A stretch of DNA of 64,000 bases from Alterileibacterium massiliense. GTDB taxonomy: Bacteria > Bacillota > Clostridia > Peptostreptococcales > Anaerovoracaceae. The DNA is taken from NCBI RefSeq assembly GCF_900104645.1, contig NZ_FNWE01000002.1:883289-947288 (forward strand). Direction: 5' to 3'. Both the position numbers and the translations under genes were made by a program. The notes beneath the pieces were generated by a model. It did no database searches and was not told where the DNA came from. It worked only from the letters and a program-made list of their open reading frames with translations. Positions 3,072 to 8,021 of this stretch are shown one piece after another (positions within the stretch are counted from its first letter, which is position 1; the number at the start of each line of letters is the position of its first letter).

Positions 3072-3968
3072 ATGAGTATATTTAATGAAAAAGGAACACT
3101 TAGAAAGATAGGGGAAAGGCTAACAGATATTCTTGTCAACAATCCAAAGATAGATGAGAATCTTATGGATGATATTGAAGAAGCCTTGGTTATGTCTGAT
3201 ATTAACCTCGATACTACTGAAAAGATAATGGAAATGCTAAGGCATGACATTAAAGTTAAATATATAAAAGATTCTGAAGATGTTAAAAAAGCCTTAATTG
3301 AGATAATATCAAAGCTTATTGATAAGGGCGAAAGACAAAAACTTATAGATGAATATCCTCTGATTATTTTAGTTATTGGTATAAATGGCGGTGGCAAGAC
3401 AACTTCAATTGCAAAATTAGCAAAGAAATTTAAAGATGAAGGAAGAAGCGTTATACTTGCAGCTGCAGACACTTATAGGGCTGCAGCATCTAAACAACTT
3501 GAAGAATGGGGCAAAAAAGTTGGTGCAAGAGTAATTAAACATAAGGAAGGAACTGACCCCTCAGCTGTAATTTATGATGCAATTCAAGCGTCTAAGGCTA
3601 ATAAGACGGATGTCTTAATATGTGATACTGCGGGTAGACTTCAAAATAAGACAAATCTGATGAAAGAACTTGAGAAGATGAACCGCGTAATTGATAGAGA
3701 ATATCAGGAAGCAAAAAGAGAAACCTTACTTGTCATAGACGCGACTACAGGTAAAAATGCAATAAATCAAGCTGAAGAATTTAATGATGTTGCCGAGTTA
3801 ACAGGCATGATAATTACAAAATTAGATGGAACAGCACGAGGAGGGATAGCTATAACAATTACCGACCAATATGATATACCAATAAAATATGTTGGAATTG
3901 GAGAAGGAATGGACGATCTAATCGAATTTATTCCCAAGGACTTTGCAGGAGGAATTTTTGATGAGTAA
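3072..3968 (+). CDS. ftsY: Signal recognition particle receptor FtsY
   Basis: FtsY is the membrane-associated GTPase that receives ribosome-nascent-chain-SRP complexes and delivers them to the Sec translocon. The 298-residue protein has a short N-terminal helical bundle and then the NG GTPase domain: P-loop GINGGGKTTS, DTYRAAA, DTAGRLQ, TKLDGTARGG. The acidic A domain of Gram-negative FtsY is missing, which is usual in Firmicutes. The P-loop reads GINGGGKT where most homologues have GVNG(V/T)GKT, a mild change. It is translationally linked to der, which starts 8 bases before its stop. ffh is not adjacent. Confidence 0.97.
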   Translation: MSIFNEKGTLRKIGERLTDILVNNPKIDENLMDDIEEALVMSDINLDTTEKIMEMLRHDIKVKYIKDSEDVKKALIEIISKLIDKGERQKLIDEYPLIILVIGINGGGKTTSIAKLAKKFKDEGRSVILAAADTYRAAASKQLEEWGKKVGARVIKHKEGTDPSAVIYDAIQASKANKTDVLICDTAGRLQNKTNLMKELEKMNRVIDREYQEAKRETLLVIDATTGKNAINQAEEFNDVAELTGMIITKLDGTARGGIAITITDQYDIPIKYVGIGEGMDDLIEFIPKDFAGGIFDE

Positions 3969-5283
3969 ACCTGTACTTGCGATTATAGGTAGACCAAATG
4001 TGGGTAAGTCTACATTTTTTAATAAAATTATAGGCGAGAGACGAGCTATCGTTGAAGATACTCCCGGTGTAACAAGAGATAGAATTTATGCTGAAACTGA
4101 ATGGAATGGAAAACCATTCGCCATAATTGACACAGGAGGAATAGAACCAAACTCAGAAGATCCAATTCTTTCTCAAATGAGAGAACAAGCTGTTATGGCT
4201 ATGGAAATGTCAGATGTCATTTTATTTATGGTTGATGGTAAAGATGGAATTACAACTGCTGATTCTGAGGTTGCCTCAATGCTTAGAAGAACCGGAAAGC
4301 CGGTAATCCTTGTTGTAAATAAGGTTGACAACATGAAAAAGGGTTCCGACAATTTATATGATTTTTATGAACTCGGGCTCGGCAATCCAGTGCCAATAAG
4401 TTCTGTAAACATGCTTAATTTTGGTGATCTCTTGGATGATATTGTAGCTTCATTTCCAGATGATGAATATGATGATAATGAGAGCGAGATAAAAATTGCT
4501 ATTATAGGAAAACCAAATGTTGGAAAATCATCACTTGTAAATGAACTAACAAATAAAACGAGGGTCATTGTCTCTAATATAGCGGGTACTACAAGGGATT
4601 CAATAGATATGCCTTTTGAATACAAAGATTCTAGATATACCCTAATAGATACAGCAGGTATAAGAAGAAAGAGCAAGGTAAGTGAAAACATAGAGAAGTA
4701 TAGCGTTATAAGGGCAATATCAGCAATTGAAAGATGTGATATATGTGTCCTTATGATAGATGCAGAGTCAGGGATAACTGAGCAGGATAAGAAAATTGCA
4801 GGCGTTGCACACGAAGCTGGTAAAGGACTTCTGATAGTAGTTAATAAGTGGGACTTGATTCAAAAAGAAACAAATACCATGAGAGATTATGAAAAAATTA
4901 TAAGAAGTGAACTGCTATTCGCATCATATGCTCCTGTGCTATTTATCTCAGTATTGAAAAGAAGAAAGATATATGATGTAATAGAAATCGCAAAAAAAAT
5001 TCAAGACAATAGAACGCGTCGCATTTCGACAGGACGGCTTAATAATGTAATTGAAGATGCAATTATGATGAAACAACCTCCGTCTGATAAAGGAAAGCGA
5101 CTTAAGATATATTACACAAGTCAGATAGGCACAATGCCACCACTTTTTTCTTTTAATATTAATTCTAGAGATTTAGCCCATTTCTCATATATGAGATATT
5201 TGGAAAACAAGATAAGAGAAGCTTTTGATTTTGAAGGAACATCATTAAAATTCATATTTAATGAAAAACGCGAGGGTAGATAG
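3961..5283 (+). CDS. der: Ribosome-associated GTPase Der (EngA)
   Basis: Der is an essential tandem-GTPase protein needed for assembly of the 50S ribosomal subunit. Two GTPase domains are visible: GRPNVGKS near residue 9 with DTPG and NKVD, then GKPNVGKS near residue 182 with DTAGIRRK and NKWD. A C-terminal KH-like domain follows. The start is placed at the ATG at 3961 because an AGGAGGA ribosome site lies just upstream and the protein then begins MSKPVLAIIGRPN, the family norm. An upstream in-frame ATG at 3943 lies inside ftsY and has no such site. At 440 residues the length is typical. The gene order der-plsY is widely conserved. Confidence 0.97.
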   Translation: MSKPVLAIIGRPNVGKSTFFNKIIGERRAIVEDTPGVTRDRIYAETEWNGKPFAIIDTGGIEPNSEDPILSQMREQAVMAMEMSDVILFMVDGKDGITTADSEVASMLRRTGKPVILVVNKVDNMKKGSDNLYDFYELGLGNPVPISSVNMLNFGDLLDDIVASFPDDEYDDNESEIKIAIIGKPNVGKSSLVNELTNKTRVIVSNIAGTTRDSIDMPFEYKDSRYTLIDTAGIRRKSKVSENIEKYSVIRAISAIERCDICVLMIDAESGITEQDKKIAGVAHEAGKGLLIVVNKWDLIQKETNTMRDYEKIIRSELLFASYAPVLFISVLKRRKIYDVIEIAKKIQDNRTRRISTGRLNNVIEDAIMMKQPPSDKGKRLKIYYTSQIGTMPPLFSFNINSRDLAHFSYMRYLENKIREAFDFEGTSLKFIFNEKREGR

Positions 5284-5285
5284 AT

Positions 5286-6677
5286 ATGTCTAAAGAAATA
5301 ATTGTAATTTTTAACAATATTGCGAGCTATAATAAGGATCAATATTTGTTGCTTATCTTATCATTGCTAATATCTTATTTGATAGGATCTATTTCACCTT
5401 CTACAATAATTTCTAAATATAAGGGTATTGATATAAAGAATTCAGGAAGTGGTAATGCAGGGACAACAAATGTACTTAGGCTTTTGGGTATTAAGGCGGC
5501 AGTTATAACTCTCGGTATCGATATTATAAAAGGCATGATTGCTGTTAAAGTAGGAATGGGATTAGTAGACTTTAATACTGCAGCCCTCTGCTCAATTGCT
5601 GTTGTATTAGGGCATATATTTCCTATCTTTTACAAATTTAAGGGAGGAAAAGGCGTTGCAACTGCTTTTGGAGCCGTACTTATGATTAACTGGCCATCAG
5701 CACTTGCAGCACTTATATTGGTAATTCTAACTGTTGGCATTTCAAAGAAGATGTCGCTTGGTTCTCTTATTGGTGCTATATCATATCCATTACTAATATT
5801 ATTTTATTTTCCAAGATTTTTTATATTTGGAAGCATTCTTGCACTGACTTTAGTTTTAACACACATATCAAATATCAAGAGATTAATAAAAAAAGAAGAA
5901 AAGGCTATATCTGTAGCAAATCCAGAAGAAACAAAGGATATTAAAGATATAAAAGATAGCAATAATATAAAAGAATTAAAAGAAGATTCAGAGCTAAATA
6001 AAGAAGTTAATAAAAATAATAAAGAAGATAGCATTGCAAAAGTTACTGATGAAAGCAGTAACAAAGCAAATGACGAAGATATACCTAAGAATTATTTTGA
6101 TGAAAAAGCAGTTCCAAATCTTAAACCTAAAGATAAGAGAAAAATTGCCTTTATCGGAATTAATAAATATCTATTATCACTTGCAAATATAATGGCATAT
6201 AATGGACATAATGTTATGGTCTTTGGAGAAGATAGAGAGCTTATTTCAAACCTTAGGGATACTAATATGCTAGAGAATGAATTTCCAGACATAAAGCTTT
6301 CTTCAAGGATACAATATACTTATCACATTATGACCGCTGCAAATAAAAGGCATATCATAGTCATAAATGGAAGCTATGAAAAATTGAAAGATTTACTTAA
6401 TAAACTCTCAAAGAAAGCAGATAAAAATACTCTTATAATTAATTTAATAGATAATAACGATTGTAAAAATATTACTGAAGAAGAAGTTAAAAAGATTATG
6501 AAAGATAACCCTTATTTAGAGCTATCTTATAAAGGTGACTGCAAGGACTTAATTATGAATAAAAAGGCTGATTTATTCGTAATTGAAGATGATGGTGAAA
6601 ACATCAATGAGGTCATTAAATCACTTGGAAGCCAAAAGATTAATATTATATCTAAGGAAGTAGGCTCTAAGAACTAA
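5286..6677 (+). CDS. plsY: PlsY acyltransferase fused to a degenerate GpsA-like domain
   Basis: Residues 1-203 form the membrane acyl-phosphate:glycerol-3-phosphate acyltransferase PlsY, which makes lysophosphatidic acid. The three PlsY motifs are present: SGSGNAGTTN (53-62), FKGGKGVAT (118-126) and THISNIKRL (192-200), within several hydrophobic segments. PlsY is normally about 200 residues, but this protein has 463. Residues 204-283 are a charged Lys/Glu/Asp/Asn linker. Residues 284-463 look like the N-terminal Rossmann half of glycerol-3-phosphate dehydrogenase GpsA (KIAFIG, NGHNVMVFGED, PDIKL). The dinucleotide loop is lost, since GINKYLL replaces GAGSWGT, and the catalytic half is absent. 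In many Firmicutes gpsA follows plsY, so fusion and decay of gpsA is the likely origin. The PlsY call is firm; the GpsA origin is inferred by eye. Confidence 0.9.
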   Translation: MSKEIIVIFNNIASYNKDQYLLLILSLLISYLIGSISPSTIISKYKGIDIKNSGSGNAGTTNVLRLLGIKAAVITLGIDIIKGMIAVKVGMGLVDFNTAALCSIAVVLGHIFPIFYKFKGGKGVATAFGAVLMINWPSALAALILVILTVGISKKMSLGSLIGAISYPLLILFYFPRFFIFGSILALTLVLTHISNIKRLIKKEEKAISVANPEETKDIKDIKDSNNIKELKEDSELNKEVNKNNKEDSIAKVTDESSNKANDEDIPKNYFDEKAVPNLKPKDKRKIAFIGINKYLLSLANIMAYNGHNVMVFGEDRELISNLRDTNMLENEFPDIKLSSRIQYTYHIMTAANKRHIIVINGSYEKLKDLLNKLSKKADKNTLIINLIDNNDCKNITEEEVKKIMKDNPYLELSYKGDCKDLIMNKKADLFVIEDDGENINEVIKSLGSQKINIISKEVGSKN

Positions 6678-6701: not shown

Positions 6702-8021
6702 ATGAAAAAATATAATATAATCACCTACGGCTGCCAGATGAATGAGCACGATTCAGAAAATATTGCAGGAATGCTTGATTCAATGAATTATATATATACC
6801 GATAATCCTCTTGAAGCAGACCTTGTTGTTATGAACACCTGTAGTATAAGGGAACACGCCGACAAGAGGTTTTTTGGTATGCTTGGGCAGTTTAAAAATA
6901 TAAAGAAAAATAATAGAGATTTTATACTTTGCATATGTGGTTGTATGCCTCAACAGGATAGAATTGTTGAAGAGATAAAAAATAGCTTTTCATGGGTAGA
7001 CATAATATTCGGAACTCACACAATAGGTGAATTTCCAAATCTATTAAAAAAAAGATTAGAAACAGGAAAAAAGCAAATCTCAATCGTGGGTGATAGTAGC
7101 AAAATATGCACTTTTGAAAACACAAGAAGGCTTTTTAAACACAAGGCTTTGGTTAATATAACCTATGGTTGCAATAATTTTTGCACCTATTGTATTGTTC
7201 CATATACAAGGGGAAGGGAAAAAAGCAGATCCCTTGATGATGTAGTAAGAGAGATAAAATCTCTTAGCGAAGATGGAGTAATAGAAGTAACTTTGCTCGG
7301 ACAGAATGTCAATTCATTTAAGGATATAAATGGAAATGATTTTTCAGATCTGATTAGGGAAGTTAATAAGATAGATAGAATAAAAAGAATTAGATTTATG
7401 ACTTCACATCCAAAGGATATATCAGATAATTTGATAGAATGTTATAGGGACTGTGAAAAACTATGTAAACACATTCACCTTCCGGTTCAATCAGGAAATA
7501 ATGAAATTTTAAGAAGAATGAATAGGCATTATGATGTAGATAGATATAAGGAGATAATTCTTAAACTTAGAAAAGTATGCCCTGATATTGCAATATCTAC
7601 AGATATAATTGTTGGATTCCCTGGAGAAAGCGATGATGAATTTAAAGATACATTGGATCTCATAAAAGAAGTTCAGTTCGATAGTGCATTCACATTTATA
7701 TATTCGCCAAGACCGGGTACACCAGCAGCAGATTTTGATAATCAAATTCCTGATAAAATTAAACATGAAAGATTCGACAGGCTTACAGAAATTGTCAATG
7801 AATCTTCACTAAGAAAAAATAAGATGCTCGAAAATAAAATTGTTCCAGTCTTAGTTGATGGTAAAAGCAAGAGAAATAATAAAATGTGGACTGGAAGAAG
7901 TGAAGATTTTAAGCTAATTAATTTTTTCAGTAAAAGAGAAAATTTAACAGGGGAAATAGTACCGGTCTTGATAGATGAAGCTAAGACATTTAGCCTTGAT
8001 GGCAGAGAAGATATTTCCTAA
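6702..8021 (+). CDS. miaB: tRNA-2-methylthio-N6-dimethylallyladenosine synthase MiaB
   Basis: MiaB is a radical-SAM methylthiotransferase that adds a methylthio group to i6A37 of tRNAs, after MiaA has prenylated the base. The 439-residue protein has the N-terminal UPF0004 domain with TYGCQMNEHDSE, whose cysteines hold the auxiliary cluster. The radical-SAM cluster motif CNNFCTYC follows at about residues 157-164, and the protein ends in a TRAM RNA-binding domain (LVDGKSKR, WTGRSEDFK). The TYGCQMN signature separates MiaB from RimO and MtaB. Its partner miaA lies about 45 kb away at 51594-53030 on the other strand. The gene is probably in the same operon as plsY and the protease gene after it. 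Confidence 0.96.
   Translation: MKKYNIITYGCQMNEHDSENIAGMLDSMNYIYTDNPLEADLVVMNTCSIREHADKRFFGMLGQFKNIKKNNRDFILCICGCMPQQDRIVEEIKNSFSWVDIIFGTHTIGEFPNLLKKRLETGKKQISIVGDSSKICTFENTRRLFKHKALVNITYGCNNFCTYCIVPYTRGREKSRSLDDVVREIKSLSEDGVIEVTLLGQNVNSFKDINGNDFSDLIREVNKIDRIKRIRFMTSHPKDISDNLIECYRDCEKLCKHIHLPVQSGNNEILRRMNRHYDVDRYKEIILKLRKVCPDIAISTDIIVGFPGESDDEFKDTLDLIKEVQFDSAFTFIYSPRPGTPAADFDNQIPDKIKHERFDRLTEIVNESSLRKNKMLENKIVPVLVDGKSKRNNKMWTGRSEDFKLINFFSKRENLTGEIVPVLIDEAKTFSLDGREDIS

Follow-up and report, generated by a model that had tools for sequence, protein, structure and literature searches.

The window, the 64,000-nucleotide stretch of the Alterileibacterium massiliense genome that was analysed, carries between der and miaB a single reading frame that starts with ATG at 5286, stops at 6675-6677 and is open from end to end. 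As the initial annotation had pointed out, the frame runs far past the end of PlsY: the product has 463 residues and the PlsY domain stops at residue 212. Judged by its sequence, the frame encodes a complete PlsY, to which a disordered linker attaches the Rossmann (NAD-binding) half of GpsA. The end of der and the start of this gene are separated by 2 bases, and no remnant of the 3' half of gpsA was found in the 24-base gap in front of miaB. The features of the locus are as follows.

3961..5283, + strand: der (EngA GTPase), immediately upstream of plsY::pseudo-gpsA; a conserved neighbour, assigned from its ORF and the gene order of relatives
5286..6677, + strand: plsY::pseudo-gpsA gene, 463 aa, flanked by der and miaB
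5337..5921, + strand: PlsY acyltransferase domain, residues 18-212 (own HMM); PF02660 and TIGR00023 above cut-off
5922..6083, + strand: low-complexity charged linker, residues 213-266, mostly disordered
6084..6128, + strand: junction motif PKNYFDEKAVPNLKP, residues 267-281; matches PxDYY....PxL of intact fusions in alignments
6129..6674, + strand: degenerate GpsA Rossmann domain, residues 282-463; stops ahead of the catalytic domain; PF01210 47.1 bits
6156..6176, + strand: one-time GxGxxG cofactor loop, today GINKYLL, residues 291-297; placed by alignment to GNGSFGT of intact fusions
6702..8021, + strand: miaB, 24 bases downstream of plsY::pseudo-gpsA; same neighbour in relatives

PlsY acylates glycerol-3-phosphate (G3P) with acyl-phosphate at the membrane. 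In the window protein, PF02660 matches residues 29-200 (E 6.5e-48, 163.4 bits, cut-off 24.1) and TIGR00023 reaches 160.3 bits (cut-off 137.2). The sequence contains GSGNAGTTNVLR, GGKGVAT and HISNIKRLIKKEE (pattern HxxNIxRLxxxEE), so that all three motifs which we take to be the conserved cytoplasmic motifs of PlsY are present. In the model of the window protein the PlsY part is helical, with pLDDT mostly >90. The whole domain, the motifs and the predicted membrane helices are thus shared with acyl-phosphate:glycerol-3-phosphate acyltransferase (PlsY; PF02660, TIGR00023). Unlike an ordinary PlsY, the window protein bears ~250 additional C-terminal residues. In function it would now be a plain PlsY. 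The N terminus of the window PlsY (5286-5336) is ~17 residues longer than that of relatives, and a start codon further downstream is possible.

Within the linker, residues 223-262 have a pLDDT <50, and the junction motif that follows reaches about 73-89. Linker length varies from 58 to 408 residues across the intact fusions described below. Very acidic, unusually long linkers of ~400 residues are found in the PlsY-GpsA fusions of G154 and G099 (L142:2784-5591 and L143:2967-5738, respectively).

For the tail, it had been proposed that residues 284-463 resemble the N-terminal segment of GpsA, that the GxGxxG loop is replaced by GINKYLL and that the catalytic half is missing. PF01210, the N-terminal domain of GpsA (cut-off 23.1), matches residues 286-388 with 44.5 bits (E 2e-11) in a search with the whole protein, and the tail alone scores 47.1 bits (E 3.4e-12), well above chance. 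The homology therefore stands, and the segment can be described more precisely as the entire Rossmann domain, from about residue 282 to its boundary at 463. The replaced loop is seen at residues 291-297. The site of the catalytic lysine reads NLIDNND, compared to NLAKGIE in intact fusions, and the lysine of NxAKGI is gone; the substrate loop reads SYKGDCKD instead of SGPSHAEE. The C-terminal catalytic domain of GpsA, PF07479, is absent from the window protein by profile search, and the frame ends before GVELGGALKN, with which intact GpsA continues. With the NCBIfam GpsA model the protein scores 41.9 bits, far from the cut-off of 257. Both GpsA domains at full length with intact motifs were found in 14 relatives and not in the window protein. 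Intact fusions share 82 columns at a conservation of 85% or more; the window tail keeps 23 of these, and the decayed relatives G032, G131 and G212 keep 30, 27 and 30, respectively. Since the GpsA motifs are lost, we do not consider catalysis by the window tail credible.

AlphaFold2 predicted a confident Rossmann fold for the tail (pLDDT 86, pTM 0.85). A comparison of the tail with the GpsA fold had been suggested as a check, and such a match was obtained with two programs. In a Foldseek comparison with the PDB the best matches were glycerol-3-phosphate dehydrogenases (E 7e-13). VIA-align placed Coxiella (C. burnetii) GpsA on top (Z 22.2, rmsd 2.4 over 180 residues); glycerol-3-phosphate dehydrogenases fill the first 14 ranks, with Z from 22.2 to 18.9, ahead of the first other enzyme at 18.7. 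Because the alignment behind the model held GpsA rows, this structural match is consistent with the sequence result and not fully independent of it. A phmmer search of PDB sequences with the tail alone gave nothing meaningful. Hydrophobic class is kept somewhat better at strand positions than elsewhere in the tail (p 0.04). Further Rossmann families match the tail weakly by sequence and also by structure, as would be expected if it were a different Rossmann protein and not GpsA. This is highly improbable, since the best sequence matches are GpsA families, the leading 14 structural matches are of the same kind and the tail aligns with intact fused GpsA over its length. In summary, the tail is homologous to the Rossmann domain of NAD(P)-dependent glycerol-3-phosphate dehydrogenase (GpsA; PF01210 and PF07479) and keeps its predicted fold; unlike GpsA, it is without GxGxxG, the NxAKGI lysine, the SGPSHAEE loop and the C-terminal catalytic domain.

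Most genera of the family have plsY and gpsA as two adjacent genes, usually arranged der-plsY-gpsA-miaB. Full-length in-frame PlsY-GpsA fusions were found in 14 genomes of the genera g80, g95 and g101; they measure 590-935 aa, and their GpsA domains are complete with intact motifs. This count comprises fusions verified by strict ORFs; G1239, G1241 and G1242 are fused by alignment only and are extra to the 14. The 14 intact fusions have the same der and miaB neighbours as the window gene. In the fusion of G147 (623 aa), PF02660, PF01210 and PF07479 are all above cut-off. The window protein shares gene position, junction motif and domain order with such fusions of sister genera, but these retain the two GpsA domains with every motif, and the window protein has lost them. 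The intact fusions are apparently bifunctional. Additional candidates drawn from open-frame lengths (e.g. G010, G242) were discarded, as strict ORFs show true stop codons between plsY and gpsA. Among strong matches from 391 genomes of the class, no fusion was found outside the family. In G719, from another family of the class, plsY and gpsA match in one frame (L210), and the match is interrupted by five TAA codons; the two are probably plain neighbours.

The truncated tail is common to the window genome (G000) and to G032 and G131, two genomes of another genus in which the gene holds the same position between der and miaB. The shortened domain and the missing motifs are pseudogene-like and could raise the suspicion of a sequencing or assembly artefact, with a frameshift or chimera joining plsY to a broken gpsA. 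An artefact is nevertheless barely conceivable: separate genomes show the same truncated architecture at the same place, the frame is uninterrupted with miaB just 24 bases away, and a frameshift would not delete a loop from a frame that otherwise aligns. The same two genomes contradict the case that the initial annotation had named as fatal to its reading, relatives with plsY and the tail as separate genes and a sequencing frameshift here, and they provide the relatives of like architecture that it had called for. In a related-locus search of genome contigs with the window gene, the matches listed covered only the PlsY part or the linker.

Other relatives differ from both the intact and the truncated form. 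G212 (L144:2412-4271) has a full-length, degenerate GpsA half with a GSGVLA loop and lost catalytic motifs, and is an intermediate stage of GpsA decay. This half has an added C-terminal extension with a basic stretch at its end. In G114 and G283, PlsY is without any tail. In G310, G299, G316 and G318, which are nested within the fused clade, plsY and gpsA are two genes again. In G310 (L137:2439-4115) both lie in one frame with a single TAA between them, and DYYAGTVIPDL, the junction motif, still opens gpsA; the fused gene seems to have been split again recently.

All fused PlsYs fall into one clade of the PlsY tree (support 96/81), and a tree of Der, PlsY, MiaB and FtsY again gave one clade of fused lineages (100/99). 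In a GpsA tree the degenerate tails have saturated branches, and their placement rests on PlsY and the neighbouring genes. Common descent of the window gene with the intact fusions is supported by the same locus, the junction motif and both the PlsY and the concatenated trees. Forcing G000, G032, G131 and G212 together was rejected (AU p 5e-5). Forcing together the three truncated forms (G000, G032, G131) was weakly rejected (p 0.019); five residues that the three truncated tails have in common, and that no intact fusion has, run against that weak rejection. By these tests the decayed forms do not group together, and the GpsA half appears to have decayed at least twice, and probably three times. 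It had been suggested that gpsA, as a neighbour of plsY, was fused to it and became inactive afterwards. Every stage of this course is found among the relatives, from separate genes to complete loss, and a history of fusion followed by decay is well supported by the sequence comparisons.

The window genome also has a separate full-length gpsA (G000:C1:213383-214435), the intact copy that the initial annotation had proposed to look for. Genes of this type, here called type A, are present as full-length, separate copies in 4/4 genomes with decayed fusions (G000, G032, G131, G212) and in the tail-less G114, and in 0/14 genomes with intact fusions. The type A copies have 66-75% identity to the copy of the window genome. 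The five genes form one clade (100), their nearest kin being GpsA from a different family within the class (98, SH-aLRT only), and type A was probably gained horizontally from that family. Type A goes together with decay in five genomes of perhaps four lineages, a suggestive rather than a statistical link. The fused GpsA is the sole gpsA in six genomes (G147, G184, G084, G099, G154, G105; 90-99% complete). The g101 genomes have a free gpsA of another type, B, in a separate clade adjoining family members. Eight of them (L159, L160, L161, L165-L169) hold an intact fused GpsA alongside type B; redundancy alone therefore does not force decay. Type B is also present in G283, which has no tail.

We consider it likely that the window gene descends from a bifunctional PlsY-GpsA fusion, and that its tail is a dead, folded and weakly constrained relic on a working PlsY. 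GpsA converts dihydroxyacetone phosphate (DHAP) to G3P. As the sequences show, gpsA lay beside plsY in the family and the two came to share a single reading frame in one clade; one polypeptide of the intact fusion would make G3P from DHAP and acylate it. Acquisition of a type A GpsA from another family may then have made the fused GpsA dispensable and led to its decay. In the window genome the GpsA part was cut to its Rossmann domain, with loss of the NAD-binding loop, the catalytic lysine and the substrate loop as read from the alignments. PlsY presumably gets its G3P from the separate type A GpsA there, and the dead tail may be kept under weak constraint mostly as it must still fold.

Selection was estimated between G032 and G131, which are both truncated, so that dN/dS reflects constraint after decay; a shared synonymous rate was used. 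The values are rough, as the pair has diverged by ~1.5 neutral substitutions per site. The tail has a dN/dS of 0.31 (0.25-0.42) and the linker one of 0.38, compared to 0.06 in PlsY and 0.025 in the free GpsA. A tail omega of 1 was rejected (LRT 61.8), and with a dN/dS below 1 the tail is not fully neutral. The N-terminal GpsA domain of intact fusions has a dN/dS of 0.02-0.03 in two other pairs, and the G032/G131 tail is ~ten times looser. The window tail shares ~24-25% identity with those of G032, G131 and G147; its divergence is saturated, and dN/dS comes from G032/G131 only.

Two observations count against a mere relic: two genera keep the tail precisely as far as the domain boundary, and its dN/dS of 0.31 is significantly <1. 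Together with the in-frame position of the tail, the confident GpsA-like predicted fold and the five residues that set the three truncated tails apart from intact fusions, they would fit a repurposed domain. The dead GpsA domain would then be a pseudoenzyme tail, a non-catalytic scaffold that holds stand-alone GpsA near PlsY and gathers it or its product at the membrane, or a sensor that tunes acyltransferase activity. We regard such a role as rather unlikely. In G032/G131 the tail is as weakly constrained as the disordered linker, and the identity of the window tail to those of G032, G131 and G147 is low. Conserved positions are slightly more frequent in the core strands, and the comparison revealed no surface common to the tails; furthermore, G114 and G283 live without a tail. 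The more specific proposal of a tail for sensing or channelling G3P or NAD(H) found no support: the cofactor and substrate motifs are lost, and selection in G032/G131 is as loose as on the linker. The sequence, structure and selection analyses gave no pointer to a ligand or partner of the tail. A relic of a former fusion thus remains our preferred interpretation.

If bifunctional, an intact fusion would form and acylate glycerol-3-phosphate on one chain at the membrane, a natural enzyme with which substrate channelling into phospholipid synthesis could be tested directly at its first step. Taken together, the clade is a natural experiment in which a fusion and the gain of an unrelated replacement gene were followed, in separate lineages, by decay, truncation, loss or re-splitting of the fused half. 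Genomes whose GpsA comes from the fused gene alone may be overlooked in annotation, and a dead tail may be credited as GpsA. In an open-access literature search no published PlsY-GpsA fusion was found, and two candidate papers describe none; the fusion may be unreported so far. The bidomain glycerol-3-phosphate dehydrogenase of Dunaliella (DsGPDH, 6iuy) is likewise a GPDH joined to another domain; its GPDH half is part of a eukaryotic enzyme, and its partner domain is a different one.
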